Positions 1-64,000 of a stretch of 64,000 nucleotides of DNA are shown here, piece after piece (the stretch's first letter is position 1; the number at the start of each line of letters is the position of its first letter). Origin of the DNA: Paratrimastix pyriformis (Eukaryota > Preaxostyla > Paratrimastigidae); contig JAPMOS010000001.1 in the NCBI GenBank assembly GCA_027972325.1, forward strand, positions 1,087,001-1,151,000. Direction: 5' to 3'. The position numbers and the translations under genes were made by a program. Under the pieces are notes generated by a model. That model saw only the letters and a list, made by a program, of their open reading frames with translations, ran no database searches and was not told the origin of the DNA.

Positions 1-51
1 GATGATGCCGCCCCCGCCCCCGCCCCCGCCCCCAGCCCCCAAGCGCTCGTA
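1..51 (+). CDS. Possible 3' end of an upstream proline-rich gene
   Basis: The first bases are a short GC-rich repeat that in frame 2 reads as a run of prolines followed by A-P-K-R-S and a TAA stop at 49-51. This could be the C-terminus of a gene that begins outside the window, like the proline-rich tails seen elsewhere here. There is no homology to support it, and a poly-CCG stretch is open in several frames. It could equally be non-coding. Nothing else is recognisable between 52 and 183. Confidence 0.2.
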
Positions 52-183
52 AGGGGCCGTCCCGCCCCGGTGGGCTGGTTGGTGGTGTACAGCCAATGTA
101 GTTTCGCGTCTTCAACAAGACTTGTGTACGGTGTGCCGCTGGCTGGCTGGAGGGGAAGGGTGGGGGGAGAGGGGGGGGGCCGG

Positions 184-3100
184 TCACCCGACGGGGAAGC
201 AGCGCAGGGTGTGGTCGGCCCCGCCCACGGCCAGCCAGCAGGGCTCCCGCTCCCCCTGGGGGGCCAGCCCCGGGGCGAAGAAGGCCATGCAGCTGACGGC
301 CTCGCTGGGCCGGCACGGGGCAGCCCTGGCCGGAAGACCAACCGTGAGCGGGTCCCGAGGCCAGCCACCACAACCACCCCTCATCAGGCACATGCCCCCC
401 ACACACACACACACACCCCTTGGGTCGGAGGGGAGAGGCGGAGGGAGCTGCAGACTGGGGCGGCATGTCCAGCTCGGCCACGCGCACCGGGGGGGCCGCA
501 TGGGCCGCCGCCTGGTCGCCCTCCTCCGCGGGGGTCGGGTCCACCGCGCATCGGCGCAGGACGACCTCCCCGCTGGCCAGCCCGATGGCCAGCAGGCAGC
601 AGCCCTCGCCCGCCTCGGTCGCGGCCATGCCGGTGGCCATCCCCGGGGCCACCAGGGAGGGCCGCACCGCCCCCGGGTCGGGCGTGGAGCCCTGGGGGGG
701 CAGCAGAGCCACGGACAGCAGCCGGGGCGGGTTGGTGAGGGGCGTGCGGAGGGCGGGCTGCTCGAAGGGGCTCGGGGCGCTCAGGGCGGCCGCCTGGTGG
801 GGGGCCATCGCGGGCCCGCCCTCGGCGAGGGCCTCGGCCGCGGGGGCGGTCGGTACCAGCCGGGTGGGCAGCCGGAAGAAGAAGACCTCCCCCCGACACG
901 TGGCCGCCGCCAGGACCAGGTGGCCCGCCCGGGCCGGGAAGGGCAGCCAGGCCAGGGCCGTGACGGGGTCCGGCAGGCCCACCGCGTGGAGGATGGTCGC
1001 TGTGCCGCCCCAGGCGCGGCCGTTCCAGTCCCAGGGGGCCGGATGAGAGGTGGGCAGGATGCAGGATGGGGCTGCTGATCGCGGGCTGAGGTCTGGGCCG
1101 GGCAGACCCTTGTCCGCGGCCCGTTCGGCCTCGCCGCTGCGGCGTTCGATGAGGAGCATGCAGAGGCGCCCCTCGCCCCCGCCCGTCGCCAGAATAGTGC
1201 CCGCTGCGGGGCCACAGGCCCCTGCAGCAGCCGTCCATGCGAGGGCATCAGTCGCGGGCAAGGGCAACCCACCGAGAGCCGGGTGGCGGATGGGGCTTTC
1301 GGGCGGGGGAGGGAGGATCCGGGTGAGCGGACCGTCAGTCGGGCGGGCGAGGATGACGTCGTGCGGGGCGAAGGCCATGCAGCTGACGGTGGCCTCGTGG
1401 AGGCGCTCGAGGATGAGCCTGGGCCAGGTGGCCCCCACCCGCCACACCGAGACCACCCCGCCCTTGCTGCACGTGCTCAGCGACCCCGAGCTCACGTAGA
1501 GCCCGTTGGGCGAGGCCGCCACCGCGGTCGCCTCGGTCGGGGGGCCGTACCTGCACAGGTCGGGCGTGTGCGTGTATGCGTGCGTCTGTGGTGGACGGGG
1601 GAGCGGGGGAGCGGGGGAGCGGGGGAGCGGGGGAGCGGGGGAGCGGGGAGCGGGGAGCGGGGGAGCGGGGAGCGGGGAGCGGGGAGCGGGGAGCGGGGAG
1701 CGGGGAGCGGGGAGCGGGGAGCGGGGAGCGGGGGAGCGGGGGAGTGGGGAGCACAGACAGCTGGCGGATCTCGGGCCAGACGGTGCGCTCCATGAGGGTC
1801 TCTTCGGTCGGGGCCCAATGGCCCTCCTCCTCCCCGGTATCGGCCTCCTCGTCGGGCCGTGGCGGCGGCATGTTGGCCGGCGACAGGGGCATGTAGGTGC
1901 GGGGGCAGGTCCTGCGTGAAGAGGTACGCCCCTGCGGCGGGTGGGCGTGTGGGCGTGCGGGCGTGACGTCGGACGTGGGGCCGGGTCTGGCAGGTGGGCG
2001 GGAGCTCCTCCTCCCGGAAACTATGGAAAGGTCCATCCTCGTCCCCATCCTCGTCCCCATCCTCGTCCCCCATCCTCGTCCCCCCATCCCTCGTCCCCCC
2101 ACCAAGGGAGTGAGCGGACCGCGGGGCAGGATGGCCCGGTTGGCCAGGTTCTGGGGGGTGATCTCGCCCGCAAAGTGGGCGGTGGCATCCTGAGCCACCC
2201 CGATCAGTGCCGGGCAGCCCCAAGGAGAGCGGGTGAGGACCGGGGGGGGGGGGAGGGGGAGGGAAGGAAAGGGCGATCGAAGAGCATGGCCGCTGGTGCG
2301 GACCAGGACCGGCCTGGGGACAAGCCCGGGGCGGGGCAGCAGGCCGCCCAGCTGGGCCAGGAAGAGCCGCGTCCCCTCGAAGACCCGCAGGCACTGCGGG
2401 GGGGCAGACCCGGGGCAGGGCGTTGTTGAGCGATCCGTAGTACGGCGGTGACGAAGAACAGATGCCCTGGGGTGGCGGGCGGACCTTCTCGTCGGCGGCC
2501 GTGACGAAGCGGAGCGCGGACCAGGCGGCCGGCTGGGCGGGAGACGCGGCCACGGACTGGCAGGGCAGCACGGCCGCCCCGTAGAGGGCGTGCCCATGGA
2601 CCAGGGGCCGCCCCACCTCGTGCCACGTCAGCGCCGCGCCCTCTCGGCGGGGCGCGTAGAGGCGGCACGTCTGGTCGGCGCTGGGCACGGACAGCAGACA
2701 GGGTCAGAAGGCCGTGTTCCCCTCCATCACCCTCCCCCCTCCAGCACGTGCCACCCGCGCGCACAGACAGGTACTCAGCCCCCGCTTGCCAGGACTGGGC
2801 CGCCGAGAGACCTGGCTGTGAGGAGGACGTGGGCCTCGGGACACCAGGCCAGGGACACCACGGCGCCCACATGCCCCGAGACCTGAAGTCACCCCAAACC
2901 AAACCCGGTCACCAGCACCTTGGTGAGGAAGAGCCGCTGCGCTGCCCTGCCAGAGAGGTGGGGGTGGAAGCCGAGCGGACCGTGGGGGCGGCCTTCCAGA
3001 TGACCTCGCTCAGCTCGACCTCCCCGTCGTCGCCATCCTCGCCGATCTCCTCCAAGTCCGGCCCGACTCCCTCGAGCCCCTGCCCGGCCGCTGGAGGGAA

Positions 3101-5050: not shown

Positions 5051-5237
5051 CCCGCATGAGCCCCATGAAATTGATTCGGGATTACGGTTGCAGCCAACAG
5101 AAAGGAATGGAATCTGATGCTCCAGTTCAGCTCGGCAGCGAAAAATTTTGACGGTTCCTGCGAGACCAGCGTCCAGAGCCCCGGCTGAAGTTCCAAAGTC
5201 GAAACGTTTGGAAAGGCTGCTGCGCTTGGCCTCTCCG

Positions 5238-8200
5238 ATGCACCAAGCGCAATTTGTATTTGTAGTTCACTCTGAAATTGATGGAAAGAAATATCGGATG
5301 GTACTCAGCGACCCTCGCGTTCCAATCAGTAAAATTAAGCGCTCGCTTGCCAAAATGACAGGAACGCCCGCTTCTGGTCTGCTGGAGGACAGCGGCTTAC
5401 TCATCACCAACTTGTCGATAGAGCAAGCGCTCGTCCTTGGCGACGCACCGCTCACAGATGCTATTCGAGTTTGCGACTCTGGAATCACCGAAGATTCTGT
5501 GGTCCTTCTCCGACCGGCCATCCCCCAGAATTTTGCATTCGTTGTGACATCTGCGTTGGATGGCCGTGGATTTCGGATGGTTTTCAAGCAAAGCGAGGTG
5601 GCCACCCACCGCGTGGGGCAGCTGAAGGCCACCCTGGGGGCCCAGGTGGGCATGGCCCCCAACGGTCCGGTGCCCCTCCGCGTCTCCTCCTTTTCACGAC
5701 ACCTCCTTTGCTGGCCCAGAGGTCTTGCTGAGCCTCGGGGGCCGCGTCCTGGACGAGCGGGCCTCGATCCTCGAGAGCGGCATCACCCCCGACTGCCGGG
5801 TCGAGCTGCGCCCCGCCCTGGCCGCCCCAGGCGAGCCCGTCCGTCACCCGCTCGCACCGCCTCGCCTCGTTCGGATGGGTGGATGGACACGCGATTCGTC
5901 TCGCCGTTTCCCTCCCTCCGGTCGACCGGCCTCCAACCCGCCGCTTGGGTTCATCATCTGTATGTCCTGTGCCCTTCTCCTCTGCCCCTGTGATGTGGGT
6001 GGGCGCCGGCCAGGCTGCTGCTGCCGTGGGGTATCCCCAGACGGCCCGCGCCGCTCGCCCCCGTCGACCGGACTCGCCGCCGCCTGTGGGGCCTCTCTCG
6101 GCCCGGGAACGGTCGGCCTCGGGCTCGACGGCGACCAGCCTCACCACCGCCGCCTCGGCCGCCCCCGCCCCCCGGGGACCCGGGGCGATGATGCCCTCCG
6201 CATCCATGGTGCCCTCCGCATCCATGGTGCCCTCCGCATCCATGGTGCCCTCCGCATCCATGGTGCCCTCCTCGGCCTCGGTGGCCTCGGCCACGGGGGG
6301 CCTGGGCATGGGCCTGAGTCATGTCTCGGCCCCGGCCGAGCGGCTCCCGCAGCTGGGGAACGCGGCCAGCCCCGAGCGGGGCGGCGGCCTGGGTGGGGTG
6401 GCCGACTCGGCCCGGCGGGCCCTCCCACGCGCCTCGCCCCCCGCGGCCGAGCGGCTCTCGCTGGGGTTCCCTCCCGCCTCGGCAGCTGCCCCCGCCCGCG
6501 ACCGGCCCGGCCCCGGCTGGCCGGGTCTGACACCGCTGCTGGAGAGCGGGAGCCCCATGTCGCCCCGCCAGTCCCAGGCCCAGGCCCAGGCAGCCGGCCC
6601 GGTGGCCACGGCCACACCCCCAGCGGCCGGAGGGGGCGCAACGCCCCGGGTGGCTCTGCTCGCCTCCCCGTCCCCGTCTCCATCCCCCTCCTTTGGGCGC
6701 GCCGCCGGTCGCCCCTCCGCCACCACGGGGCCCGCCCCCCTCGGAACGCCCCCCTACCCCCAGCCCCAGCCATACAGTCCCCAGCCCCAGCCGTATCCCC
6801 AGCCGTATCCCCAGCCCCAGCCCCAGCCGCTGTACGGTGGTGGAAGTTCCCGTTCGCCGGGGCCCGCCGACGGGGCCTGGGGCGATGACCGGGAAGGGGA
6901 CGGGTGGGCCTCGGCCACCTCGCCCCCCGTGCCCACCCTGCACCGGGGCGCCCCGCCCTCCCGGGCGACGCCCCCGCTGCACCGGGCGCCCCTCGAGAAC
7001 AACAGCCCCATCCAGGGTCCCACCCCGGGCGGCTCCGCCTTCGTCGGCCCCCACCCCGGCCAGGCCTCCGCCAGCAGCGGCAGCCCCGACCTGCCGGCCG
7101 GCCCCGGGCCCCACGGCGGGGCGGCCTCGACCCCTCCCCACCCGCGCTTCCCGGGGGCCTCACCGCCCCTCCCGGGCAGCTCGCCGCCCGCCGACCAGCC
7201 CCCCGCCCGAGTGGCGCCCGCCCCGGGGCTCCCGGTGCCCTTCCTCTCGCACCCGGCCGAGCCGCCCCTGCAGCCGCCGCCCCGGTCGGGCCGCATCCCC
7301 ACCCCACGCTCGCACCTGCCCGGGGGCACCCCCCGAACCAGCAGCCCCCAGCCGGGCGGCGCCGGCGCACTCCCAGCCGCAGCGGCGGCAAGCGCGGCCC
7401 CCACCCTCAACGGGACCCCCTCCGAGGGGCGCCTCTTCGGCCTCGCCCAGGGCCCGCCCGCCGCCCCGGCCCCGGCGGCCGGCCCGCACTCGCCCCGGCC
7501 CCCAGCTGAGGGTTTCCGGGCGGGCAGCCCCCGGCTGGCAAGCGGCGGTGGCCCCGGGCCCCTGCTGCTGCGCGGGGAGAGCCCCTCGCCCTCACCCGCC
7601 CCATCGCCCCGCCACGCGGGCCGCCACCCCCACCTGCGCCACGGCCACCGCCGCCCCGACCGCCCCGATGCCTCGCCCGCGGAGGCCCCTGAGGGCGCCG
7701 AGCCCGCAGCGGGGGCGCCCAAGGAGAGTGCCCGGGCGGGGGGGCCCGAGGGCGGCGAGGAGCAGCAGGACCGCAGCCCGCGCCCCGACCGGGTGGCCGC
7801 CCCCATCACCGGGCCGCCCGGGGCCGCCGCCTCCCCCGCCCCTCCCCTCGAGGCCGCACCGGGGGCTCCGGCGGCTCCGGGGGCAGGGCGGCCCAAGGCC
7901 GCGGGTGGGGCGCCCCCCGAGGACGTCCTTGTAAACACATTCCGGCGCCGCGTCCGGCCGGCCGCCTCTGCCTCCGCCTCCGCCTCCGCCTCCGCCTCCC
8001 CGGTCCCCGCCGCCCCCGCCGCCGCCACGCCCTCGCCGCAAGCCTCCTCTTCCGGCGCCCCTTCCGGCGCCCAGGCGGCCGCCCCGCCCCAGGCACAGCC
8101 TGAACAGGCGGTGGGGTCCGAGGGTCCCGAGGCTGCTCAGCGGGCCGCGGAGGCCCCCAGCAGGCATCGGCACCACCCCCAGCCCGGCCCCGAGGGGGAC

Positions 8201-27464: not shown

Positions 27465-28604
27465 ATGACTTACCCCTTTGTTGCGCAGGCTCTCCCTTAC
27501 CCCCTTGACCCGACTGGCCCCTTGATTCCATCACCACAACTCCCTCAGATGCCTCTTCAAATGCCCATGCAAATGCCCGGCTACGGAGTCAATCCGGATG
27601 AGGCGGTGGATTCTGATATTAAATGTCTCTTCATCTCCGGTCTTCCGGCGGATGTCAAGCAACGTGAAATTCACAATCTGATGCGCCCCTACCCGGGATA
27701 TGAGGGGAGCACACTCAAGGCTGTCGGGCAGAAAATTGCATGTTTTGCCATGTTCACGACGCGTGAACAGGCTCAGTGCGCTCTCGACGGACTGAACGGG
27801 ATCACCTTCGATGCAGAACTGAATTCAGTTCTCAGGGTTGATTTTTCCAGGAGAAACAGCAATGGCATCAAACGGACTCGCGAGCCGGAAGAATCCCGTA
27901 CCCAGGGCCGGCCTCGCGTGGAGACAATCCCTGTCCCATCCACCGCCCCACCCCCACTGTCATGCTACCCGCCTTACTTGCCAAACCAGTCGGCCTACGC
28001 CACCGCACCCAGTGCCCTTTTGCCCTCACCGCCGATCCCACCCGATTTGAGCAGCCTCGACCCCGCCTCCGCTTCGCAAACCATCCTTCCGGCCTCCGAG
28101 AGATACCCGCCAGCCCCGTACCAGGTCTGACGCTGCTTTCTCTTCGAAATCACCGTTTGGGATGAATCTGTAGGCGTACGCGGGCTGGGGCGGCGCGCCT
28201 TCCTCCTCGCGTTCTTTCCCGTCAGCGCAGCAGCAGCAACGCGCTCCGTCGCTTCCAATTGCCACCCTTTTCGTGTACAACCTTCCCGTCTCCGCCAACG
28301 AGGTGGCCCTCCGGGAAATCTTTGGAAAGTCGGTTGCTGTCTCCTTTGGTGTCTCATCGCTCGTGTATTCTTGTTTTCTGCTTGTAGGTATCCGGGTCTT
28401 GGGCGTCTGTCGGTGAATCACAAACCCAACGGCGCTTGTGTTGCTTTTATCGAGTTTTCATCCGTTGATGAGGCCACAACGGCCATGCGGGCTCTGAGTG
28501 GGACCCCTTTCGAGCCGGGGACGCAGCCCATGCAGATTGATTATGCGAAGAAGCCTTTTGGATCCCCACCGACCCACCGTCCCCCCCAAACTACCCCCCA
28601 GTAA
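27465..28604 (+). CDS. Two-RRM RNA-binding protein, RBPMS/MEC-8/couch-potato type
   Basis: Exons are 27465-28124, 28231-28328 and 28388-28604, encoding 324 residues. Introns begin GTCTGA (106 nt) and GTCGGT (59 nt) and end GCAG and GTAG; phases 0 and 2 agree. RRM1, residues about 52-125, carries the RBPMS signature: RNP2 CLFISGLP, RPYPGYEGS, and FAMFTTREQAQCALDGLNG in the RNP1 region. RRM2 has TLFVYNLP, the short-loop YPGLGRLSV, and CVAFIEFSSVDEATTAMRAL. Exon 2 ends at FGK and exon 3 starts at YPGLG, so the join is fixed by the fold. A Pro/Tyr-rich linker separates the RRMs, with a Q-rich start to exon 2. The N-terminal PQMPLQMPMQM tract is low complexity. Family members bind paired CAC-containing RNA and affect splicing or mRNA localisation; the target here is unknown. 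Confidence 0.88.
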
Positions 28605-32664: not shown

Positions 32665-33262
32665 TCAAGCGACGACGTGCACCCGAGAAGCGTCGAACCG
32701 CGACTGAGCGGGGGCGGTGGTCTGAGGAACCCGGGGATGCCCAACAGCAATGATCGAGAATGCCTGAAAGAAGGTGGCCAGATGTATGATTGGATCCGCG
32801 AGGACGGACCGTCATAGTCTCGGGAAGGCTGAGGATGCGGTTGACACGCTCAACGCGGTCGGCTTCAGGAGTAATGCCGAGCCAAACAGCCCCGAGACCC
32901 ATGTCATAGGCGGCAAGAAGGATATTTTGAGAGGCTGCAGCGCAGTCCTGAACCTCGTTGCCCTGATACTTGATCTTCGTCTTGTCAACGCAAACAACAA
33001 TGGCACAGGGAGCAGCCTCAGCGGGGCCCGCATATGGAGAGGCTTGACGAAGCTGGTGGCGAACCTCTACAAAATACCAATAACTTGATGCGGGGGAAAT
33101 AAAGAACAAACCAGCGCTGGTGCACACGTAGAAGTGCCATGGCTGCTCGTTCCCGGCCGACGGGGCCTGCATTGCAGCATGGAGAAGGGAATCAACTTCC
33201 TGCTGGGTCAGGGGGGTCTCGGTGAATTGACGGCAAGAGTGGCGAGCGAGAAGCGTCTGCAT
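32665..33262 (-). CDS. Nitroreductase-family FMN protein, short single-domain type
   Basis: Exons 33262-33112, 33066-32810 and 32763-32665; introns of 45 nt (GTTTGT...GTAG) and 46 nt (GTCCGT...TCAG). Phases agree and give 168 residues. Family marks are the N-terminal LLARHSCRQFTETPLTQQEV (flavin-binding R-x-S-x-R-x-F variant), AAMQAPSAGNEQPWHFYV, AAASQNILLAAYDMGLGAVW, and the closing FSIIAVGHP after intron 2. The length matches the compact nitroreductase subfamily. These enzymes are FMN-dependent homodimers that reduce nitro-aromatics or quinones with NAD(P)H; the physiological substrate is not predictable. No targeting peptide is obvious. Sequence and GC content are close to bacterial homologues in style, but two spliceosomal introns show it is settled in the host genome. 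Its ATG abuts that of the divergent kinase gene. Confidence 0.9.
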
Positions 33263-49296: not shown

Positions 49297-50602
49297 TCAC
49301 CGACACGTGGAACCCACCCGCTCCGCGATTTTCTCCCATTGGGTGTTGTAGTCCGTCCCGGCCAGGACCCTGAGAAACAAGTCAGCAGGCGCCCGACAAA
49401 GTCGGCCAAGATGCAGACTGTGCGACCCGGGGGGCGATGGATGGCCATTCCCTGAGGAAACTCCCGCTGGCAGCACGGAAGTCGCGGCAGAGCACGGACA
49501 CTCGGACCCGAGCAATCTTGCGGAGCTCCGCTGTGGGGAAGAGCGCGCGTGAGCGGTGTGCCGCCAGGAGCTTCCTCGCCAGACCAAAGGCGTCCATCAG
49601 GTCGCTCCAGAGCTCGGCCTCTCCGGCCCGGGAGAAGACCCCCTCCTGGAGGGGGAACGTCTGTATGCCCCAAAGGGAGAGAGGAGCGAGATGAGGCCGG
49701 GGGTGGGTTTCCCGGGGGCCAGCGACCTGCTCGAAGGCGGCGATCTGGCCGAGGGTGCCCTCCAGGGCCGCGAATGAGGCCGCCTTCTGCCGAAGCGGAG
49801 CCGCAGCCGCCGGGGGATCGACAGACGCGGCACCGCCGGCTGCCTGCACGAGGAAGGGCGCCAGGTTGGAACACGGTGGGGTCGGATCAGGCGGACAGGG
49901 CGGGACCTTGAGGACAACGTGGTTTCGGAGGGCCTCCAGGGCGCCCTTCATCTCGGCCGCTTCGGCCCCGCCTCCGCATCCCGTCAGGCCCTAGGGACCC
50001 AGATCGATGGGTATCGTGAAGTAGCTGAAGGACAAGGACCCCCGATCGATGGGTATCGTGAAGCAGCTGAAGGGCAAGGGATCCCGACCCTCGCGATGTG
50101 GGGCAGGGCCTCGCGAATCTGGGACGCGGTGGGGTTGGGCATGGTCAGCGTCACCCGGGCCAACTCCAGCGGTGCCTACAAAGACGCAACACAGGCGCGA
50201 GTTAAAGGGGGCTGTGAATGAGCCTGGGGGACCGATCGAACAGGAGGCCGTGGCGGACCAGGCAGTCGTACATGTAGCGCCACTGGAAGAGCGACCGCAC
50301 GGGGAGGGGCGTCGCGGCCGCCCGGAGGGCCGGGGTGTAGGCGTTCTCGGGCTGCCCAGCCAGCCGGTAGATTTGCCCTGCGCCCGCCATGGCCGAGGGC
50401 CGCAGCGGGTGAGAAACTGCGATGCCGGACAAAGGGGGCGAGGGGGCAAATGGGGCGGAGCGGACCCCAGTAGAACCAGGCGTCGGCCCGCTCGGGGTCG
50501 AAGTCGGCGGCCATGCGGTAGTAGCGGACGGCCTCCTCCAGGTTCCGGTAGAACCGCTCGTAGATCTCGCCAAGCTACATCCGGGAGGCACGTGCCATGT
50601 GT

Positions 50603-50633: not shown

Positions 50634-52197
50634 GGTTGAGGGGGGGCGGACCTTAATCATGGCGAAGAAGCGCTCCTCGTAGTATCCGGTGCTGGTGAGG
50701 GCCACGCGGCGCTTCAGGTACTCGACGCCCTGCTCCAGCAGCGCCCAGTGGTGGGCCGTCGGTTGCTCTGTGAGCAGGAGCGGAGACCCGAGGGGCAAGT
50801 GAGCGGCAGAGCCGGTCGATAGGCCGAGTGGGGAAGGAGGGGCGGGGCGGGGAGGACGGGCCCTGGTTCTTGTTGAAGATGTCGAAGTGGGCATACCCCA
50901 GGTAATACAGCGTCCGCGGGTCATCGGGCAGGTCGGCCAGGTCGGCCTTCAGCATCTCGATGTACCTGCGGAGAAGGAGGAAAAGGAGGAAAAGGAGGAG
51001 GAAAGGAGGAGGAGGAGGAGGAGGAGGAGGAGGAGGAGGAGGAGGAGGAGGAGGAGGAGGAGGAGGAGGAGGAGGAGGAGGAGGAGGAGGAGGAGGAGGA
51101 GGAGGAGGAGGAGGAGGAGGAGGAGGAGGGATGCAGATCAATGCTGGAACGCAACGTCAGTGCGTGTGGATGTGGGAGACGCCCAGGTGGCCTGTGCGCG
51201 GACCGTTCGTTCTTGCCGCCGGCCCGGTCGCCGTAACCTGCGCTCTCCTCGATGCGGAGGGAGACCATCGTCTGGTAGTACTGCCCAGCCGAACGGGGTG
51301 CATGTGGGGGTTGTGCGATGAAGGTGCGTGAGGGTGGGAGCGGAGGCAACGGACAGTCTGCCCGGGGATTGGGGGCACCTCGACAGTTTGGTGGGTGCGT
51401 CGCTTCACCTGCGCCCAGGCCCCAGACGGGAGGGAAAGCACGAGACGGGAGATTATGGGCGCGAACGAATCATCAGGGTCAAGAATCGGGGCACGGGACG
51501 AATCATCAGACGGACCACCGACCCGGGGATGTTCCGATAGATCCAATCCAGGGTCCGCTCGTTGAGCCCGTCCTGCAGGACAAAAGCCGCCGTGGAGAAG
51601 GAGCAGGCACGGCACGGCAGTGAAGGCGGCGAGGAGGACGGACGGACGGACGGACCTCCGACCAGATTTTGAAGCTGTGTTTGGAACACATGGGATCCAG
51701 CTCGCTCTTGTCCCAATCCGTGTTGATGGGGGCAAAGTCGGCATCCGCAAGGATACCTTGAGAGAATCGTCACCATCTGGGGGATTGAAGGGGCGCCGGC
51801 GCACAAACCATGTGTAACGTTGGGACACGCTTCCCGCCCAGCTTCCATGAGCTTGGACCAACTCGGACCCATGCCCTCAAAATTGATCTTTACAATAACG
51901 CCGGGAATGCCAGCAAGGGTCCTTCGAATCACGTCCTCCGAGTGGTCCGTGGGCTTGTTCAATACATCGACGCCAATCTAGGAAGAGAGGTGCCCTTGCG
52001 TAAAAACAGAGGGTTGTACAAACAACGTAGCAGTCAATGATTTTCGCCCACCTTGGGAGTGTCCGAGCAAGGTTTTGTTCCTCATCCCGGGTGAGCATGT
52101 TCAAAATAAGAGATCCGCTCGGCTTTTTCGCCTTCCCCTCGACCAAAAAGGCTGTACATAAGATAAAAATAAGGATGGTATGAATGTGATGGAGCAT
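49297..52197 (-). CDS. Secreted/Golgi GT2-type glycosyltransferase with TPR-like C-terminal half
   Basis: ATG at 52197 gives a signal peptide (MLHHIHTILIFILCTAFLVEG). A GT-A nucleotide-sugar domain follows: SLILNMLTRDEEQNLARTLP, IDCYV/IGVDVLNKPTDHSED across a 46-nt intron 51978-52023 (GTTTGT...CTAG), then GILADADFAPINTDWDKSEL with the DxD-type D-A-D. The second half is TPR-like, with YIEMLKADLADLPDDPRTLY, YLGYAHFDIFNKNQ, GVEYLKRRVALTSTGYYEER, LEEAVRYYRMAADFDPERAD and AWFYWG, the order seen in GT2-TPR fusion proteins. The C-terminus runs through LARKLLAAHRSRALFPTAEL. Intron 49370-49418 (49 nt, GTCTGC...TCAG) leads to TDYNTQWEKIAERVG and the stop at 49297. Expected to act in the secretory pathway; donor sugar and acceptor are unknown. 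Introns hold a (GGA)n array and a 42-bp duplication. Confidence 0.8.
50002..50085. repeat. 42-bp tandem duplication in an intron
   Basis: Two adjacent copies beginning gatcgatgggtatcgtgaag, differing at only a few positions. They lie in the glycosyltransferase intron between a GTCGGG donor near 50089 and a CCTAG acceptor near 49990. Confidence 0.85.
50601..50634. repeat. (TG)n followed by poly-G in an intron
   Basis: A short tgtg tract then a G16 run, in the glycosyltransferase intron downstream of the GTCCGC donor after EERFFAMIK. In the transcript it reads as poly-C then (CA)n. Confidence 0.8.
51002..51128. repeat. (GGA)n array, about 125 bp, in an intron
   Basis: About 38 ggaggagga units. 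In the minus-strand glycosyltransferase transcript it is a (UCC)n polypyrimidine tract shortly before the exon starting RYIEMLKADL. Confidence 0.95.
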
Positions 52198-52317: not shown

Positions 52318-55167
52318 ATGCTTCCACCATCTTCGGCTGGCAGCAATAGAAAACCTGCCGAGGGGACTGTTCTTCCCCTCAATGCGGCCGCATCAGTTCG
52401 CTCTATTGAACAGACTGTGATGCGTGAAAAGGAGAAGCACCAAAAGCTTCTTCGGTCACAACAGTCTGTATCTAATTTATCCATTTTCCCCTGTCGCTGA
52501 TATTTCTGTTCAGCCAAACTATCGAGCGGCTGCGGCAAGAAAATGAAACGCTGAAAGAGAAACTGGAAATTGAATCTCGGGCGCCTCGTTCTTCTGGGGC
52601 AAGCAGCCTTCCTTCGGATATTCAGGACCTGGAACACAACGTGGACGGCCTGGCCCGTCGCATCGCCGGATTCCGCGATGAATTGGACCAGAAAGATAAA
52701 GAGTTGGCGATTTTGACCTCGAAGATTTCTGCCAAGCGAGTAGAAGTGGGCGGCGTGTACTCAGCACGAGACGCCGACATGGTTATTTCGAAGCAGATTC
52801 ACATTATCGAAAACCGGCTTGAGAAGGTCTGCCTCGGACTCACTCCCGTCGTCAATGCTCGTTCTTGTAGGCTCTTGTGAAATTTAATGAAGCCATTGCC
52901 TACAACAAGGAACTTCGAGAGCAAATCGATAACCTTCGCTGCGAGCGCGTCATCTTCGATGGCATTTACAAAAAGACGGAGCGCGACCTCTATGAGCGCA
53001 AGAAAGAAATGGCCCGGATCATTGAAGACTCCAACTTGGCGTACGAGGAGCGGTCCGCCTCCGTCCCCGTTTCGCTTTTCCCCTGACTGGTCGATGCTCC
53101 CGGGGCGCAGGAACGCCTCGATCGAGGAGATTCGGATGCTGCAGGAGCAGCAGAAGGAGAACGAGGAGCAGTACCAGAAGGAGATGGAGCGCCTCGAGAA
53201 GGAGATTGCCCACCTGCAGTCGACCCAACCCCACCCCGAGGAGGCTCCCTCCGAGACCGGTGCCGCCTCTGGGCTTCCCATCCCCTCGCCGCACGGCAGC
53301 CGGGCCGACGAGCGCTCGCGCTCCAAGCCCACGCCCGGTCTGCCGCCCACTCCGGCTGCTTGCCGCCTCGTTCCCCTCGCCCCGCCCGGCCCGCTCACAC
53401 GCCTCTTCCCCCCCACCCCGCCCCGCCCCACCCCACCCCGCCCCACCCACCCACTCCCCGACAGACGCGTGGGCCTCGATGAAGCAGCGGACGGTGCAGC
53501 AGCTGAGCAACGAGAAGGTGCAGTCGTACGAGGACGCCCTCAAGCAGATCCAGACGGCGACCAAGATCACCGACATCACCGAGCTGGTCGCTCCCCCCCC
53601 CCCCACCAGCCGCACACCGGCGACTCGTTCCGCCCGGCTGGCTGCTCATCTCTGGTCCGATCCGCCTCTGTGGGCTGTGTGCTGTGGGCTGGGGGGGGGG
53701 GGCGAAGGGGCCGGGCGCAGATCACCCACTTCACCGAGATCGAGGACCTCAACGTCTCCAACGCCAACATGATCGGCGACCTCGAGTCTGCCCCGCCCCG
53801 CCCCCGCCCCGCCCCCTTCCATCCCTCGATCTCATCCCCTCCATCCCACCATCCATCACATCCATCGCATCCATCCATCCAGCCGAGCCGCCCTGACACA
53901 CCCCCATTCCTCCCGGGTGGGGCTGCCTGTGCTTGTGTGGTGCTTGTGGCTGTGGTGGGGGCGGCCAGGATTGAGATCCAGCGGGTCCGCAGCCGGACGA
54001 AGGAGCTCCGGGCCGAGGAGGAGGCCCGCCGCACCCAGTACAGCACCACCAACGAGGAGTGCCGCAAGCGCACCGCCGCCCTGCTCGTCCGTCCCCCTCT
54101 GCCCTCCGCCCCGCCCCGCCCCGCCCCTCGCGCCAAGGGCATGCCCTCACGTCGCGGCCCCTTGGATTGTTGGCGCGTGCGGCTGGCTGGGTGCTGCCGT
54201 GGGGGCGGAGCAGGAGCGCCTCCAGGCGACCGAGGCCCGCCGGGACGAGTACCTGGCCCGCACCAAGGACGCCTACCAGTGGGTCCGCCCCTCCACGCAC
54301 CCCCGCCTTCAGCCCCCACCCCTTCTGCGTCGCCAGGCCGCTCCATCCCCGTCATATTCTCCCCGGCATCCCTCATGCCTTCCTTTTTGTCGCTACTGGC
54401 GGGGGTGCGGGTGGGGCGGCGTCCAGGTGGAGGCCATCACGGAGCCCATCATGCAGCTCTTCCAGGGCATCGAGTGCCGCATGCCCGCGGGCGAGCTGGG
54501 CCCCACGGCCATCACCCGGGAGAACATCATGCGCTTCCTCGGTCCGCATGCCCCCCCCGGCCTGCTGCCTGCCTTCCCCCGGGGGGTGGTGGGCCTTCCC
54601 AGCCCCTGACATCCTTCCGCCTCCGGGGGGATGGGGGGTACAGGCCTCATCGAGCAGCACGTCTCGGAGCTGGTGGCCCCGTACGTGGTGCTGCACCCCG
54701 AGTCGCGCCACCTCCTGGGCAACGTCCGCATCCATCCATCCCCCCCCCCCCCCCCCCCCAATGCCCGCCCGCCCCCAACGCCCGCTGCCCCCCTCTCGCC
54801 ATCTCTCTCACCGCTGGCCGTCTCCCCTTCGCCGTGGCTCCATCCCATCCCATGTCATCCCATCCCATGTCATCCCATGCCCGCAGCTGCAGAGCGGCCG
54901 CCCCCGCAATCGAGTTCCCCACCAAGTCCGCCCCCATCATCATCATCCTCCCTCCTGCTTGCACCACCTCACTGGTCTGCGTGGCCCCCCTCACTGATCT
55001 GCATGGCCGGTCGGTCGGGTGGCTGGGCGGATGGGGCGGAGCAAGGACGACGACGACGACCTGGCCGACATCGACGTGCCCCTCATCGGCCAGGAGCTCC
55101 GCGCCACGGCCATCACCGTCCGTCCGCCGGCCCCCCTGCTGCCCCCTGCCCCGCCCGCCCCACCCCT

Positions 55168-55203
<36 letters not shown>

Positions 55204-55485: not shown

Positions 55486-55507
55486 TTCTGACGCATCCTC
55501 CTTCCCA

Positions 55508-55542: not shown

Positions 55543-55746
55543 CTCTTTGTGCCCTGCCCGCCCTCGTTATTTCCGCGATCCTCCGCCTGCCTGGAAGGGG
55601 AAGAGACGAGCAGGAAGGGCCGAACGGATGTCTCCAGCTGGGGATTGCCGCACTCGGGGGGGGGGGCGCTCCGCTCGCGCCTGGGTGACCACGAATGTCG
55701 CCTTTTCTGGGGGGCCGAGGGTGGGGGCCCGGGGGCGGCTGGCTCC

Positions 55747-57756
55747 TCATCGCTTCTTGGCGGCCGGCTTGGTGGCGGTGGCCTTGGCGGCCCCCTTCGC
55801 CCCCTTGGCGCTGGTGCGGGCCTTCTTGTTGCCCTTCTCCGCCGCCGCCGCGCCCGCCTGTTGTCGGAGGGGAGGAAAGGGAGAAGGGGTGAGGACGATG
55901 GGGCCCTGGACCATGGGCCATGGGCCAGGCGGAGCGGAGCAGCTCGTCATGATTGCGGGCTGGGGGCCGGTCGGAGAGGGGCGGGTGGCGTGGCGGACGC
56001 TTCTTGACGATGACGGGGCCCATGAACTGCTCGAGGCGGCTCTGGGTGGCCGTTTGCTTGGAGGCCCGCAGCCGGGCGGTGGTGGCCCGGACCCGGTCCT
56101 CGGCAAACTGCTTCTCCCCCACCAGGAATTGCACCAGCCCTGCTCCCCCGCCCAGCCAGCCAGCCAGCAATCAGATGGGGATGAGGAGGAGGAGGAGGAG
56201 GAGGAAGAAGAGGAAGAGGAGGAGGAGGAGGAGGAGAGGAGGAGGAGGAGGGGTGGGTAAGTGGGTGGGGTGGGGGGTGGCGGGGGAGGGGGATGGGGCA
56301 GACCCTCCTCGTCGGGCTGGCCCCAGCGCAGGTCGACCCGGGCCGGATCGAGGACCTCAGGCTGCTGGAAGAGGGCCCGGGCCTGCTGGTAGTTGAAGCT
56401 CTCGGGCAGGGGGAACTTGGTCTTGTCCAGGTGCTCCAGGGCCTGCTCGATGGTGCCCCACCGCTTGATCAGCTTCAGCGCGTTCTTCTCCCCGATCCCT
56501 GCCGCCGCCACACCCCCCGAAACAGCAGCCGCGGAGGTGAAGGGCCAAGGAAGGGAGGGAGGATGGATGGGCGGATTTGGGGGAGGCCAGGAGGGGGGGC
56601 GGACCCTTGATGGTGCCGCAGTAGTCGCACCCGCAGAGGATGCAGAAGTCGACGAACTGCGATGGTGGCGCGGGTGCGGGCGGGGAGACGAGGTGATGAT
56701 TGGTCGCCGGGTTCGGCTGGGGACAGGCTGTCAGGAGCAAGAGCGTGGGACATGGGACAGGGGGTGGGGGCAGCGGGGGACAGGGGTGCGGGGCAGACCT
56801 GGGGCATGGTGAGCCCGAGGCCGGCGATGACCTGGTCGAGGTGCACCTCGCGGATGGGCAGCTTGCGGGCCTCGGAGAAGGTCAGGTTGCGCAGCAGGAT
56901 GGGGCTGCCGAAGCAGAGCGAGTCCATATCCTCGCTGCCCGTGGCCCAGATCTTCCCCGCCCGGCACAGGGCCGCGCATTGGGCCTCGGCCTCCCCGGGC
57001 GCCTGTGGGACAGACACACGACGGCATGGATGGGGGGCAGGTTGGCGTCTGTGTCAGCAAGAATGGAGAGGACGCGCCGAGACCTCGATGTACGGGATGC
57101 CCATCAAGGTGAGCAGCCGCTTGGCCTCGTCGCAGTGCTGCTGGTTGACCCGCACCTGGCGCCGCGAGAAGCGCTCCATCTCGGCCTGGTCGCCTGGTGT
57201 TGGGGGGTAACACCCACCGCGGTGATAGCCACCTTCCCCCAAGAAGCAGCAACAGACCTGCTTCCTTGGCCTCCGCCTCCTTCTCTTTGGCATCCTCCCG
57301 GACCTCGTGGCGCCGAGCAAGCTGTGCCACGGGGGGACAGACGTTGTGGGGGACCGGAGGGACGCACGAACCTCGTTCTGCTTGGCTTCTGGGGGCCGAC
57401 CATCGAAAACGTAAACAGGCCGAAGGCCAGCAGCCATCATTTTTGTGGTGCGAGTGAACATCCCCATGAGATGACTGCACGAGGAGGAGCACACCAGTCA
57501 CGAGAAAGAGGGAAGAAGAGCAGACCTCGTGACCTCACCTTTATCATTGGTGAGTTGCTGTCCTTCGACACGAACAGCAATCTAGAGATGGAGAGGAGGT
57601 AAACATAAAGCAGGTGGGCCCAAAGACCAAAAACTGATAAAGTGCCATGGAAGCATCAATGCCAATGACCCGGCCAAAATAGCTAGGGACGGGATTCTCG
57701 ACGACGGCATCGGGGGCATTTTCAAGGATCACCTGCATCAAATGTTTAATTCCCAT
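55747..57756 (-). CDS. FEN1: Flap endonuclease 1 (FEN1)
   Basis: Structure-specific 5' flap nuclease of Okazaki-fragment maturation and long-patch base excision repair. Canonical start [18 protein letters not shown]. Metal-binding acidic residues are all present: [57 protein letters not shown]. Then come the helix-hairpin-helix [40 protein letters not shown], a PCNA box TQSRLEQFM (final aromatic replaced by Met), and a Lys/Ala-rich tail [13 protein letters not shown]. Introns include 57582-57626 (45 nt, GTCTTT), joining ALYQFL to IAVRVEG, and 57475-57525 (51 nt, GTCTGC), joining GEVT to SHLMGMF. Later donors are GTTCGT, GTCTGT, GTCTCG, GTCTGC, GTCCGC, GTCTGC and GTCCGC. Because FEN1 is so conserved, this gene calibrates the splice-site rule for the window. 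It shares a 60-bp divergent spacer with MOZART1. Confidence 0.97.
56178..56256. repeat. (GGA)n repeat in a FEN1 intron
   Basis: About 75 bases of gga/gaa repeats in the intron between the exon ending QPDEEG and that starting [10 protein letters not shown] (UCC)n polypyrimidine tract in the transcript. Confidence 0.85.
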
Positions 57757-57816
57757 TTTGAATGGAGTGCGAGCAATTCAAATAATTTGAAATGTCCTGA
57801 AGAACCTCGGGTGAAA
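57757..57816. promoter_or_regulatory. Very short divergent promoter between FEN1 and MOZART1
   Basis: Only 60 bases separate the two ATGs, so both 5' UTRs and core promoters must lie here or overlap the genes. The stretch is AT-rich compared with its surroundings (ttcaaataatttgaaatg includes an imperfect palindrome). No TATA box or known element can be assigned with confidence. Confidence 0.4.
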
Positions 57817-58097
57817 ATGGCTGAGAGCAGCAAAGAGGGTTTGGACCTCCGGATGACCTTTCTCACTTCTTTCCCCATTTTCAGCAATTTTCGAGATCTC
57901 TCAAATATTAAGGACGGGTCTCCACCCAGAGACAGTTGAAATCCTGACTGCCCTCACAGAATCAGGTGCGAATCCCGAAACGCTTGCAGCAACAGTCAAG
58001 GAACTTGTCAAGCAAGCGAACACATTAAAAAATAAGGTCCCCGTTGTTTTCGTTTCTTCTAGACCTTTTGTAGGTGGTCGAGCCTCCTTTTAGTTGA
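57817..58097 (+). CDS. MZT1: MOZART1, gamma-tubulin ring complex micropeptide
   Basis: Exons 57817-57838, 57885-58036 and probably 58074-58097; introns of 46 nt (GTTTGG...TCAG) and 37 nt (GTCCCC...GTAG). The protein is about 65 residues: MAESSKE joined to AIFEISQILRTGLHPETVEI, LTALTESGANPETLAATVKE and LVKQANTLKNK. The L-x-E-I-S-x-I-L-x-T-G-L and G-x-N-P-E-x-L blocks are the MOZART1 hallmark. It binds the N-terminal region of gamma-tubulin complex proteins and promotes microtubule nucleation at spindle and basal bodies. Conservation ends in exon 2, so the last junction is uncertain. Without splicing, translation would run on and stop at the TAG at 58091. Divergently transcribed from FEN1. Confidence 0.92.
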
Positions 58098-58151
58098 ATG
58101 CCGGCATTTGATCGAGTTGCAGAGATTCGCCATCTATTGAGAGAAGGTGCG

Positions 58152-58173
58152 CCCCCCCCCCCCCCCCCCCCCC
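58152..58173 (+). repeat. Poly-C run (22)
   Basis: C22 shortly after the MOZART1 stop. If it lies in the MOZART1 transcript it is 3' UTR; otherwise intergenic. Confidence 0.8.
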
Positions 58174-59357: not shown

Positions 59358-59391
59358 GGAAGGAAGGAAGGAAGGAAGGAAGGAAGGAAGG
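59358..59391. repeat. (GAAG)n tetranucleotide repeat
   Basis: About eight copies of gaag in the spacer downstream of the PDE gene. Confidence 0.9.
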
Positions 59392-59733
59392 GAGAGGAAG
59401 GAATCGTGGAAGGAAGAGGGGAACAAAAGGATGACGATTTCCCATCGAGAGGCGACGGGAGTGGAGGGAAAACCAACCCGAACGAAGATGCAGAGACGAC
59501 CAACGGCCGAGAGATAATGGAAGGAGAAGGCAACGCGGCGTCGAGGGCGTCGAAGAGGGAAGGGGGCGAGATGCCATGGGATGAATGGCAGGCAGGAGAG
59601 GCGATCAAGATCAAGAAGGAAACACGGCTGCCACCAAAAGGAGTGTGGGGCGCACGCGCGGGGAGATGCACCGGAGGAGCGGTGATAATATATATATGCG
59701 AGGTGGGGGGAGGCTGGGCTGTGGGACCGGGCC

Positions 59734-61457
59734 TTAACGGGCGGCCGGGGTGGGGGAGGCAGATGACACGGGCTGAACCGGCCCTGAGGCGGCGGGGTGG
59801 GTGGGCTGGGGCCGCCCGGCGCTCATGGACTGGAAGCCCTTGAGGCAGGCCGCCCGATCCTCGTAGCCATGGATGAGGCCCTTACGGACGATGGGCCCGT
59901 TCTCGGGGGACTCGGCTGCCTTGCGGTAGAGGAAGAGGTTCTGCAGCATGATCCGATAGGGGAGCAGGAAGAGCGGGAAGCTGCGCAGCAGGATCAGCGC
60001 CAAGGGCCGGAGGAGGACCGTGATGAAGTCGCTCTGGGTTTGGCACGGATCGACGACGTTCCGATCGCGGAGGGGCGGCACGTTGAGGCCCAGCTCCCGT
60101 TCCAGGTCGCCTAAGAGCAGAGCAGAGACACCCCGCCGGTGGTGCGGTGAGCAGCGGTCGGCCAAAGGAACCGGGGCAGACCTTGGTGGAGGAACTCGCG
60201 CACGCAGTTCGTCGCTTGCCGGTAGGCGCACCGGAGGGGCCGCATGGGGTTGGAGATGTCGGCCACTTTGATGAGCAGCGAGATGAGGAGACGCCGCTGC
60301 TCGTGGGACGAGTCCGAGGCGGGGCGGCTGAAGACGTCGCCCAAATACTCGCAGTTCCTGGGCAAAGAAAGAGCCGGTCGCGATGAGGAAAACCCCCGCC
60401 ATCACGGGCGAATCTCCAGACCGGACGATCTCGAAGTGCTTGGACATGTCGGTGCTCAGGATGGTGTGCCGCATGGTGTCCATGATCCGTTCGGTCATCT
60501 CCGGCTCCAGCTCGCCCAGGAGGCCCGTCTGGAGGAGGGCGGCCCGGGTGCGGGCCCAGTGCATCTGCTCGAGGACGGACACGTTGTTGTACTGAAGGGC
60601 AAGAGCCGTATGGCGGGCGCATTCCCAGTCGTTGTTCGTGCCTGCGGAAGAGCGCGCAGAGAGGCACGGTGACTTTCCCAGAAGGAGCAGCAAGCGGGAA
60701 TGGGATGGGTGGGTGGTGGTGGTGGTGGTGGGATGAGATGAATGCGGCAACCACGGACCAGGATGCCCCGTGTCGTGGCCCACGGCGGCCAGCAGGACGG
60801 CCAGACAATCCTCCTGGGGAAGGACTTTGCCAATGATGCCCAGGTTGGTCAGCATCCAGGCGCACACCAGGAAGACGTCGCACGCGTGGAAGCGGTTGTG
60901 GAAGGGCGCCCCCTGGTACTGGGAGAAGAGTCCGAGGCAGTACGCGAGCACCCTCGTGCGCTCGAGGCCGAACTGGGCGGCCAGCCCCATGTTCTCGAGG
61001 ACGTCCGCGCAGAGGGTGGCCAGGTGGGCGGACGTTTGGGTGGCCTCGTCATTGGCCACGTCGAAGGCCCACGACTGGGCGCGGCGGCACAGACTCGTCT
61101 TGGGGTCCGACGGGACGGTCGTGTTGAACCGGCAGAACTCGGCCCACGAGCGCCGCGAGTGGCGCGTGTCGAGCGGCTCGGCGTTGGACGTGCGCCGGCG
61201 TGGCTCGGGCAGCATGGCCATCGCCTTGGCCGACTCGAGGGAGGCGGGCGAGGCCGTGTACGGGGTCGACACAAAGACGTGGCCAGGCAGGAAGGACCGC
61301 GACCGCGCGTGTTTGGGGGTGGCCAGGGGATTGATGGCGGACTTGTGAAGGGGCGACAAGGTGCCCGAGGTCGAGTAGGAGTGCTTCAGGATGGAGGGAC
61401 CCGAGGGCGGAGGGAGCAGGGCCGGGAGATCCGGAAGAGGCGAACGATCCGAAGTGG

Positions 61458-61549
<92 letters not shown>

Positions 61550-62996
61550 GGTGTGTGATCTTTGGCCAGAAGGGGAGAGCAGACCCTGCGTTCGTCGGCG
61601 GAATCGTCGGACTTCTCGTCGGATTCGACATCGGAGACACGCTGCCCGCCGCTATGAGGAGACGAGTCAGGTTCCAGCTCGATGTTCAGCTGGGGCCGGT
61701 GGGTGTGCTCGATGATGCGACCACGCTGGGGCGCGGCCGAAGCATGGTTGCCCGAGGGATGGGGCGAAGAATGGGGGCTGGTGATAATGGGACTTGGGGG
61801 GATCAGCACCGGCAGGGAGGACGTCGAGGAAGACGGGGGAGGGGGGGTCGCCACTGAGGGAGAGGACAACGGAGACGATTGGGATGTTGAGACGTTCGGC
61901 GGGGGCGAAAGGGGCGAGTGTGGCCGAGGCTGGGGCGAGGAGAGCACCAAGGCCGAGAAAGAGGTGGAGAGGCCCGACGGGGAGGACCCCAAGATGGGAG
62001 GCGAGGAGAGCAGAGTCATCTCAGACTCCCACGAGGGCACCTCGACCAGAGAGGCCCCCAATCCCAACAGAGACGGCGAAGAGGGGGAGAGTGCTTCGTC
62101 GGGTGGCGGGTGGACGCCCGGCGAGGAGGGCAGGGAAATTTGAACATGCGATTGGGCATGGGTTGTCCCCCCAGCCGATGCGGCCTCCGTATAGTGAACG
62201 ATCCGCTCCATCATGCGGGAGAACAGTTCCAAGAGCCACATGGGATGCGTGGGGTGCTCAGGCAGGGGGGCGCCCCGCCCAAGAGTCGATGCAGCAACAA
62301 GGGCGGCCGAGAGCCCGGGCGAAATGAAGGGGGAGAACGGATCCGATGTCTGAAGGGGGAACTGGCCAGCGGTGCCCCGCGTATATTCTCGGACGACAAA
62401 CGACTTGAAAGCGGCCACCTGAAGCAAACAACAACGAACGATTTCGATTTGGACGAGTGGGATTCAGAACGGACCAGTACTTCCGGAGAAGGACCAATAA
62501 GATCTTCATGGGTGTCTGTAGGATCTGGGGAGCTTTTCAGATCGTCAGTGGGGAGTGCCCTGAGATAGGGCATGTACTCATAGGCCGATCCAACGAATCG
62601 GTGGGCGGCGAGTTGCATCAGCTGCCGAGACGGGATCTGGGCAGAACCTCTGTCGAGTAAGGTTGTCATTGCTTCGGTAATATATTGTTCTTCGAGGATG
62701 AAGCCCTCGCAATCGGAGGTTGCGGTGCAATCAAATTTTGTGGGCTCGCGCGCCAGGAAAGAGATTGCCCCCAAGAGACTCCCAGAAGGAAGGCTGGGAA
62801 TGAGAGTGAGCGTCTCGCTGCTGATCTCCATCGAAACAGAGGCGGTGCCCTCTTTCAGTATAAAAATGTGAGTGGCAGTTTCGCCGGCCCGGATCAACCG
62901 CTCTCCCTTTGCGAAATGTCGTTGAGGCAAACAGCAGCAGCACCGATAATCCCAATCGGAAGGTACTCTCGCCTTGACGCAGGGAGTAGACTTCAT
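59734..62996 (-). CDS. Cyclic nucleotide phosphodiesterase with N-terminal cNMP-binding domain
   Basis: The start is probably at 62996 (MKSTPCVKARVPSDW), but the 5' end is uncertain. The N-terminal cyclic-nucleotide-binding domain reads HFAKGERLIRAGETATHIFI, LKEGTASVSMEI, SGSLLGAISFLAREPTKFDC. Intron 62419-62474 (56 nt, GTCCGT) follows, then a Ser/Pro-rich linker. The class I PDE catalytic domain shows PFHNRFHACDVFLV, AAVGHDTGHPG/GTNNDWECARH, LQYNNVSVLEQMH, ILSTDMSKHFEIV, LIKVADISNP and the purine-clamp region QTQSDFITVLLRPL. Metal-binding His/Asp residues are all present, so it should hydrolyse cAMP and/or cGMP; which one cannot be told. Other introns begin GTCTGC (61459-61584, filled by a CA repeat), GTCCGT and GTCTGG. 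The stop is at 59734. A CNB-PDE fusion suggests ligand feedback on activity (inference). Confidence 0.88.
61461..61548. repeat. (GT)n microsatellite forming an intron's 3' part
   Basis: About 44 uninterrupted GT units on the plus strand, (CA)n in the PDE transcript. The repeat runs straight into the intron acceptor, so the 3' splice site reads CACACAG followed by the exon beginning STSDRSPLP. Confidence 0.95.
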
Positions 62997-63463
62997 AGGG
63001 CCGGCTTCCCTGGCGGTGTTGTATACCCAGTGTAATGTTGGCTGATTCGTGATTCTCGGCTGCGATTTTTTTCGGCTTCTCCCACCAGCTGAAAAACGGG
63101 GAGACACACCGGACCATCTAAATTTGAGCGAACTCAAGAAATCGACACACCAAAACACAGCAAATGAAAATTGCAAATGAAAATTGGAATCGATGAGAAC
63201 AGAATAACACTGAAACAAAAACAATAAATCGACAGATGAGGAAATCTCGATCGAAAAAGAGAAATCTAGCCGAAAACTACAGCACAACAACACAAAAGTC
63301 CAAAAAATCGTCCGACGAGAGGCCGAACCACTCCAAGGGAGTGTGGCGCTCTTGCAATACGAAACGGCTACGGATGGAGGCAAGGCACCCGCGCCACGAA
63401 AAAACGACAGAGTAATGGTCAGAAAGGGCGGAGTGGTGACGAACGCAGCGGTGAGGAACCCGA
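62997..63463. other. AT-rich 5' region of the PDE gene
   Basis: 467 bases between the PDE start and the next minus-strand stop. The 63130-63330 part is strikingly A-rich compared with the rest of the window and includes tandem-like caaatgaaaattg repeats. A long open minus-strand frame exists but lacks homology. It probably contains the PDE promoter and 5' UTR, possibly an unrecognised 5' exon. Confidence 0.5.
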
Positions 63464-64000
63464 TCAAAAGAGGCTGCTCCCCGGGGGCATCGTGATGTTC
63501 GTTGGCTCCTGGGAAGCCAGGGCCGGCTCAGAGAGAAGTGCCGATCCCGTCAACACGGAAGGGGCAAGACGCCGGGGAAGGATGGCCTCCTCGTGGGCAG
63601 GGACCACGAGAGGCGTATCCCCCCCCGAGATGGCCGAGGCGGCCAGGGAGGCGCTCAGAGGCGACCCGGACCGGGACGAGTCCATCTGGGGATCGGGCAG
63701 TGCGTCGACCAGCGGAGCCTCGATCGGCGGTTGCCGTGGCCATTGGGGGTCGGTAGCCGTGGGGGGCCGGAGCGCGGGGGTGGGGACGGCCACAGTGGGG
63801 GGTGGACTGAGGCGCGGGCCGTCGCGCAATCGAGCGGCCGGCAGGAAGCCGCCACCCGAGGAGCGCAACGGCACCGAGCCCCACTGGACCCGGGGCGCAA
63901 TGACCGAGGACCCGGTCGAGGATGCGGTCGAACCCGGGGTTCCGGCCCGGTCCTTGCCCGAGATGGGCCGCACGGGCTCCGGCACCAGGGGCATGGTCGG
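63464..64000 (-). CDS. 3' end of a Pro/Ser-rich protein gene, continues beyond window
   Basis: The reading frame is open from the window edge to a stop at 63464, about 178 residues, rich in P, S, A and R with no recognisable domain (for example SVPLRSSGGGFLPAARLRDG, ending NITMPPGSSLF). Composition matches other disordered tails in the window. The gene's N-terminal part and function lie outside. Confidence 0.5.
   Translation of the reverse strand, partial: PTMPLVPEPVRPISGKDRAGTPGSTASSTGSSVIAPRVQWGSVPLRSSGGGFLPAARLRDGPRLSPPPTVAVPTPALRPPTATDPQWPRQPPIEAPLVDALPDPQMDSSRSGSPLSASLAASAISGGDTPLVVPAHEEAILPRRLAPSVLTGSALLSEPALASQEPTNITMPPGSSLF

Follow-up and report, generated by a model that had tools for sequence, protein, structure and literature searches.

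The 64,000-nucleotide stretch analysed here (the window) spans bases 1087001-1151000 of contig 1 in the 56.06 Mb, 495-contig genome of the metamonad Paratrimastix pyriformis. Genes of the window, among them those for ELP2, a nitroreductase and FEN1, are interrupted by introns whose 5′ splice sites (donors) depart from the usual GTAAGT. An earlier note on this DNA listed 16 such introns and claimed that donors of the type GTYYGY (Y, pyrimidine; R, purine) replace GTRAGT in unrelated genes of either strand. We placed introns in the window anew by spliced protein-to-DNA alignment, with a GT start and an AG end as the splice rule and nothing else forced, using PDB chains 8avg_B (ELP2), 3e10_A (nitroreductase) and 5zof_A (FEN1) as references. 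Eight introns were placed independently in this way, six from the earlier list and two outside it, with a pyrimidine at +3 in seven of the eight; for the other ten listed introns the basis is an open frame together with a likeness to known proteins assessed by eye. In the list below, a drop is the loss of alignment score when the donor is banned.

1000..1107, minus strand: ELP2 intron, donor GTCTGC; earlier note's placement, frame open across the join
1551..1758, minus strand: ELP2 intron, donor GTCTGT; re-placed against 8avg_B, drop 31
2394..2484, minus strand: ELP2 intron, donor GTCCGC; re-placed against 8avg_B, drop 8
2533-2571: doubtful in-frame call of 39 nucleotides, donor GTGCTG; weak, the sole purine at +3 among the eight re-placed
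2681..2811, minus strand: ELP2 intron absent from the earlier list, donor GTCTCT; drop 30
5665..5719, plus strand: intron in a ubiquitin-like protein gene, donor GTCCGG; frame continues, gene type by eye
28125..28230, plus strand: intron in an RRM-protein gene, donor GTCTGA; RRM (Pfam) in the upstream open reading frame
28329..28387, plus strand: intron within an RRM-like domain, donor GTCGGT; LFVYNLP...REIFG^KYPG...VAFIEF across the join, by eye
32764..32809, minus strand: nitroreductase intron, donor GTCCGT; re-placed against 3e10_A, drop 16
33067..33111, minus strand: nitroreductase intron, donor GTTTGT; re-placed against 3e10_A, drop 16
49370..49418, minus strand: intron, donor GTCTGC; join open
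51978..52023, minus strand: intron, donor GTTTGT; join open (IDCYV^IGVD)
52464..52513, plus strand: intron in a coiled-coil-like gene, donor GTCTGT; open frame
52827..52870, plus strand: second intron of the same coiled-coil-like gene, donor GTCTGC; open frame
57475..57525, minus strand: FEN1 intron 2, donor GTCTGC; re-placed against 5zof_A, drop 31
57582..57627, minus strand: FEN1 intron 1, donor GTCTTT; join YQFL^IAVR, drop 51; corrected from 57582-57626
57839..57884, plus strand: intron in a MOZART1-like gene, donor GTTTGG; gene type by eye
62419..62474, minus strand: intron in a cyclic-nucleotide phosphodiesterase-like gene, donor GTCCGT; cNMP-binding and PDEase_I (Pfam) in the flanking open reading frames

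With both strands read, 15 of the 16 listed introns run from GT to AG at the coordinates first given, while 57582-57626 proved short by one base. After this correction a pyrimidine occupies +3 throughout (16/16), as had been claimed, and the further claims of a pyrimidine at +4 in most introns and G at +5 as a rule also hold (15/16 each). Because the full GTYYGY is present in only 11 of the 16, GTYYG is the better description. The joins of 49370-49418, 51978-52023, 52464-52513 and 52827-52870 are based on an open frame only.

Several features of these genes were noted in passing. The ELP2 intron at 1551-1758 consists mostly of a GGGGAGC-type tandem repeat (window 1590-1745, raw sequence), and a protein search with ELP2 gave no match at E 1e-60. 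FEN1 (minus strand, about 57756) and the MOZART1-like gene (plus strand, about 57816) lie head to head, with start codons an estimated 60 bases or so apart.

Donor sites fixed by conserved proteins

The same alignment procedure was applied to CCT genes outside the window. Seven of the eight fetched loci were aligned; the remaining one (L042), for which there was no reference search, is not counted. The CCT alignment search brought up proteins of the CCT3 type, not all subunits. For CCT3, whose predicted protein in this genome is 96% identical to the NCBI P. pyriformis model, an identical set of eight introns was obtained with six references (that model, P. eleionoma, Blattamonas, Monocercomonoides, a fungus and Heterosigma), with donors GTCCTT, GTCAGT, GTCTGT, GTCTGT, GTCCGA, GTCTGC, GTCTGC and GTTTGT. 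Banning each donor in turn, with the P. eleionoma reference, cost 19-136 score units per donor, a test that among the CCT introns covered the eight of CCT3. When GT and AG were no longer forced (two references), the eight introns fell within 6 nucleotides of the same places at an equal or nearly equal score. Alignment of six more CCT genes to PDB chains yielded the other 35 introns, two of which are weaker: a 226-nucleotide CCT1 intron with donor GTCGTT, for which the ab initio model described below picked a nearby GTCTGT, and a 54-nucleotide CCT5 intron that adjoins X filler in the reference sequence. Each of the two carries C at +3.

For all 43 CCT introns a GT..AG placement, with GT and AG forced, exists at the join fixed by the protein. 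Position +3 is C in 42 and T in one; +4 is T in 23, C in 18, A in one and G in one; +5 is G in 40; and +6 is T in 23, C in 15, G in four and A in one. GTYYGY accounts for 34 of these donors and GTRAG for none, and the protein-placed donors are shown to be mostly G|GU C (U/C) G (U/C). In most eukaryotes, pairing with U1 small nuclear RNA (snRNA) requires a purine at +3 followed by A, a combination absent from the CCT introns, which have a pyrimidine at +3 in 43/43 and at +4 in 41/43.

To these 43 donors we added the 16 listed earlier, one of them corrected, giving a set of 59 that excludes 2681-2811 and 2533-2571, and took as decoys the 305 GT dinucleotides within CCT exons (Y at +3 in 149, G at +5 in 69, GTYYGY in nine, GTRAG in six). 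A pyrimidine at +3 occurs in 59/59 donors and 149/305 decoys (Fisher p 9e-17; p 8e-13 for the CCT introns alone). At +4, U is enriched fourfold (34/59 against 42/305, p 5e-12) and C is not (22/59 against 116/305, p 1.0); at +6, T stands at 31/59 against 55/305 and C at 20/59 against 123/305. Since T is enriched over the decoys and C is not, U is selected at +4 and +6, C is tolerated at its background level, and purines are avoided. Among the 59 introns, U at +4 showed no association with any of five other positions in the donor, nor was a branch-point consensus found in them (CTRAY in 7, against 6.2 in shuffles), despite a good match to the U2 family. A preference for A at -3, which would fit the U at U1 nucleotide 11, was dropped: the excess (24/59 against 64/305, p 0.002; p 0.05 for the CCT introns alone) is weak, and the ab initio model favours C there. 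Across the genome, GTCTGC occurs 20371 + 20455 times and the reversed pattern 15607 + 15645 times, which fits donor use and is no proof of it.

A hidden Markov gene model was run on the window and a further 200 kb (C1:1-200000, including 5,000 N). Given a fixed GT and AG and no initial preference in the donor weights, it arrived at G|GTC(T/C)G(T/C) (429 introns, C at +3 at a frequency of 0.87). Started from a canonical GTRAGT matrix, it still ended with a pyrimidine at +3 in 391/420 introns and GTRAG in 0/420. Control rules yielded no YYG (TG..GA 32/414, CT..AC 27/577), though introns under CT..AC had a pyrimidine at +3 in 402/577. The ab initio introns include many of 20-40 nucleotides, and the canonical-start and control runs reused the codon table of the flat start. 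Because the false CT..AC rule outscored GT..AG in total, the model is used as support only.

That same score (8245 for CT..AC, 8033 for GT..AG) favours the view that the pattern is an artefact, with wrong but tidy-looking exon joins picked out of GC-rich sequence, as the total fails to separate true from false rules. Against it, the junctions were placed by proteins in seven CCT genes, FEN1, the nitroreductase and ELP2, the score falls when donors are banned, and the donors match U1 independently, as set out below; we find an artefact scarcely credible. The intron donors predicted from the P. pyriformis genome are thus confirmed as GTCTGT-like and not the usual GTAAGT. Protein-guided placement, decoys and the ab initio model agree on the replacement of GTRAGT by donors of the GTYYGY type, with +6 looser than had been claimed, and they bear out its occurrence in genes of both strands that are unrelated to one another.

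U1 snRNA genes and the splicing machinery

The Rfam U1 model finds eight loci in the genome (50.8-60.2 bits, E 2e-10 to 4e-13), all full length (1-166), with identical 5′ ends, closely similar bodies and differing flanks. All eight genes start with AUACAGACCUU, where the canonical sequence is AUACUUACCUG, so that U5 is replaced by A and U6 by G; the longer 5′ read of all eight is AUACAGACCUUGC, where the Rfam consensus has AUACUUACCUGGC. In place of ACUUACC, then, ACAGACC is found in 8/8 of the genes detected. A pattern with nucleotides 5-6 set to NN and up to three mismatches allowed returned exactly the same eight loci, all with AG, and the reversed pattern returned none. U1 nucleotides 5-6, which are pseudouridines in human and yeast according to the available parts of two papers (PMC10581693, PMC3510501), are thus A and G in P. 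pyriformis; the guide RNA or enzyme responsible for this pseudouridylation should therefore be lost or redirected.

The altered U1 fits the donors, since C or U at +3 can pair with G6, and U at +4 with A5. Mean duplex energy over the 59 donors is -8.95 kcal/mol with the actual U1 and -3.62 kcal/mol with a canonical one, and for four canonical-type donors the order is reversed (-6.83 against -11.85). Among the 16 possible pairs at U1 nucleotides 5-6, AG ranks second (-8.95) and UU fourteenth (-3.49), with GG the best of these (-10.71). The earlier note had pointed to a conflict between the donors and U1 pairing, and this conflict is answered by matching substitutions in the U1 genes themselves.

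These genes bear on a further explanation, by which the donors drifted to GTYYG under GC pressure once U1 had lost its role, with U6 or U1 proteins choosing the site and the U1 5′ end decaying. GUCUGU is indeed complementary to the ACAGA of U6, the genome is GC-rich, and a precedent is offered by Entamoeba, for which such site choice has been proposed, whose donors are GUUUGU and for which no U1 RNA is reported. An invariant 5′ end in eight genes that match the model over its full length is unlike decay, however, and the two changed bases restore pairing. Composition, moreover, favours G at +3 (131/305 exon GTs), yet purines occupy that position in 0/59 introns. We regard drift of this kind as very unlikely.

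Spliceosomal snRNA genes for U1, U2, U5 and U6 are present, those for U1 below the curated cut-off. U6 is represented by four identical copies (96.7 bits) with ACAGAGA intact, U5 by seven copies, of which the four read have an intact loop (GCCUUUUAC), and U2 by ten matches, nine above the cut-off and reaching 160 bits (at the level of matches, the sequence being unread). One zf-U1 (U1-C family) match was obtained, its sequence likewise unread, from a family that also matched in the Escherichia coli control. Upstream of the eight U1, four U6 and four U5 genes read (L009-L020, L051-L054), CCCATAA follows a T-rich stretch; this sequence is likely a common snRNA promoter element resembling a proximal sequence element. 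Its 14-base form, CCCATAATTTTTCC, has no match in the window at up to two mismatches. RTATCCTT, the donor motif of U12-type introns, was found in 0/59 donors, and U12-type introns were rejected on this count, AT starts being impossible in the 43 GT-forced introns. The genome search gave no match to U11 snRNA, nor did the controls of that search.

Loss of METTL16 and SNRNP27K, which A-to-U switches at +4 track in the Saccharomycotina (PMC10581693, in the part available), could also have driven the +4 change, with the change in U1 secondary. P. pyriformis has both genes: a METTL16-like gene with the CNPPFF motif, whose best solved relatives are METTL16 (L041, C332:38824-39153, minus strand), and an SNRNP27 gene with the YRQYMNRKG motif (L050, C9:25886-25972, minus strand). 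U1 is unchanged in the Saccharomycotina, as far as that part of the paper goes (PMC10581693), and loss of these genes leaves +3 unexplained, so we hold this route to be unlikely. P. pyriformis has retained its METTL16-like gene despite the rarity of A at +4, and the SNRNP27 gene is apparently split by an intron with donor GTCTGC, as read from three frames only.

Donor recognition and comparison with other systems

Taken together, we judge the donor shift to be real and of more mechanistic interest than the earlier note reported. It is very probable that these are ordinary GT-AG introns of the U2 type whose donor code and U1 snRNA have been rewritten jointly. The capped U1 RNA would be expected to start AUACAGACC, and its G6 would pair with C at +3 (or by wobble with U), A5 with U at +4, C4 with G at +5 and A3 with U at +6. 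The donor would then be handed to U6, in which ACAGA (A41 C42 A43 G44 A45 in human numbering) forms the complement of UCUGU, the bases from +2 to +6. GUAAGU, by contrast, would pair well with a U1 and not with U6 at +3/+4. The sequence AUACAGA is common to the U1 and U6 of P. pyriformis, GUCUGU can pair fully with both, and a donor therefore need not compromise between them. A likely path, of conjectural order, would start from GUAUGU-like ancestral donors, modelled on those reported for the oxymonad Streblomastix, and run through a U5-to-A change in U1 that restored the +4 pair to a U6-to-G change accompanied by A-to-C at +3. A stronger version, to which we give only slightly better than an even chance, holds that U1 has become a copy of the U6 reading head, with one genome-wide donor, UCUGU, as a Watson-Crick match to both and with pseudouridine positions 5 and 6 lost.

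Several points weigh against a U1-coupled rewriting or its stronger version. The U1 genes, at 50.8-60.2 bits, lie under the Rfam gathering cut-off of 69.5, and 41 of 992 first-look U1 candidates were scored, so further, very divergent U1 genes are possible. GG at nucleotides 5-6 would outpair AG (-10.71), so that A5 is not explained by pairing alone; C at +4 (22/59) is mismatched to an A in U1 and U6 alike; and the full UCUGU is present in just 14/59 donors. Expression of U1, its exact 5′ end and the splice junctions are themselves inferred from genome sequence.

In essence, a code that ranks among the most conserved in eukaryotic gene expression appears to have been rewritten naturally in P. 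pyriformis. It offers a natural experiment in U1/donor co-evolution, in the limits that the hand-over from U1 to U6 sets on donor evolution, and in how a change hitting introns genome-wide can happen. If the stronger version holds, the U1/U6 conflict at +3/+4 would be gone, the hand-over would become an exchange of equal duplexes, and the U1 code would have been naturally replaced across a whole genome. In practice, gene prediction built around GTRAGT will go wrong in the Paratrimastix lineage. In the available portion of the P. pyriformis genome paper, introns come up only in the methods (RNA-seq intron hints for Augustus and a curated training set) and in one reference title (PMC10703272); the terms 'splice site' and 'snRNA' each occur 0 times in that paper (PMC10703272). 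Searches of the open-access literature, a coverage outside which subscription journals and most preprints fall, yielded no account of a U1 whose 5′ end had been altered to match the donors of its genome.

The comparisons that follow draw on the accessible portions of the papers cited. P. pyriformis shares with canonical U2-type introns the GT-AG ends, G at +5, CAG/TAG acceptors, the ACAGAGA of U6, the U5 loop and the possession of U1 genes; it differs from the canonical pair of U1 ACUUACC and GTRAGT in having C at +3, U or C at +4, and AG instead of UU at U1 nucleotides 5-6. In Entamoeba histolytica the donors are GUUUGU and no U1 RNA has been recognised (PMC6085484, PMC13292270). The pyrimidines at +3/+4 and a donor resembling the complement of U6 ACAGA are common to both organisms, whereas P. 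pyriformis is not U1-less, having eight U1 genes with compensating bases. In Fritillaria there is likewise a bulk departure from the donor consensus, but its U1 5′ end is strictly kept and GT is mostly lost, while P. pyriformis keeps GT and changes U1 (PMC13326754). Canonical U1 ends are reported for Giardia (PMC3510501) and for two nucleomorph U1s (PMC6461891). Closer by descent is the oxymonad Streblomastix, which also belongs to the Preaxostyla, with GUAUG donors (A, U and G at +3 to +5; PMC1501061); U at +4 and G at +5 are shared with P. pyriformis, but +3 is A there, as in yeast. In the Saccharomycotina, ACUUACC is invariant wherever U1 was found, in 227/230 species and 9/10 outgroups (PMC10581693). 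The A-to-U switches at +4 in that group resemble the P. pyriformis donors in that U at +4 faces A43 of U6, but there U1 is invariant and the switches go with loss of METTL16 and SNRNP27K, whereas P. pyriformis has a changed U1 and keeps both genes. Parker and colleagues suggested that A in place of pseudouridine 5 of U1 might compensate for U at +4, and found no case of it in the Saccharomycotina (PMC10581693); P. pyriformis has the change that they proposed, together with an adjacent one.

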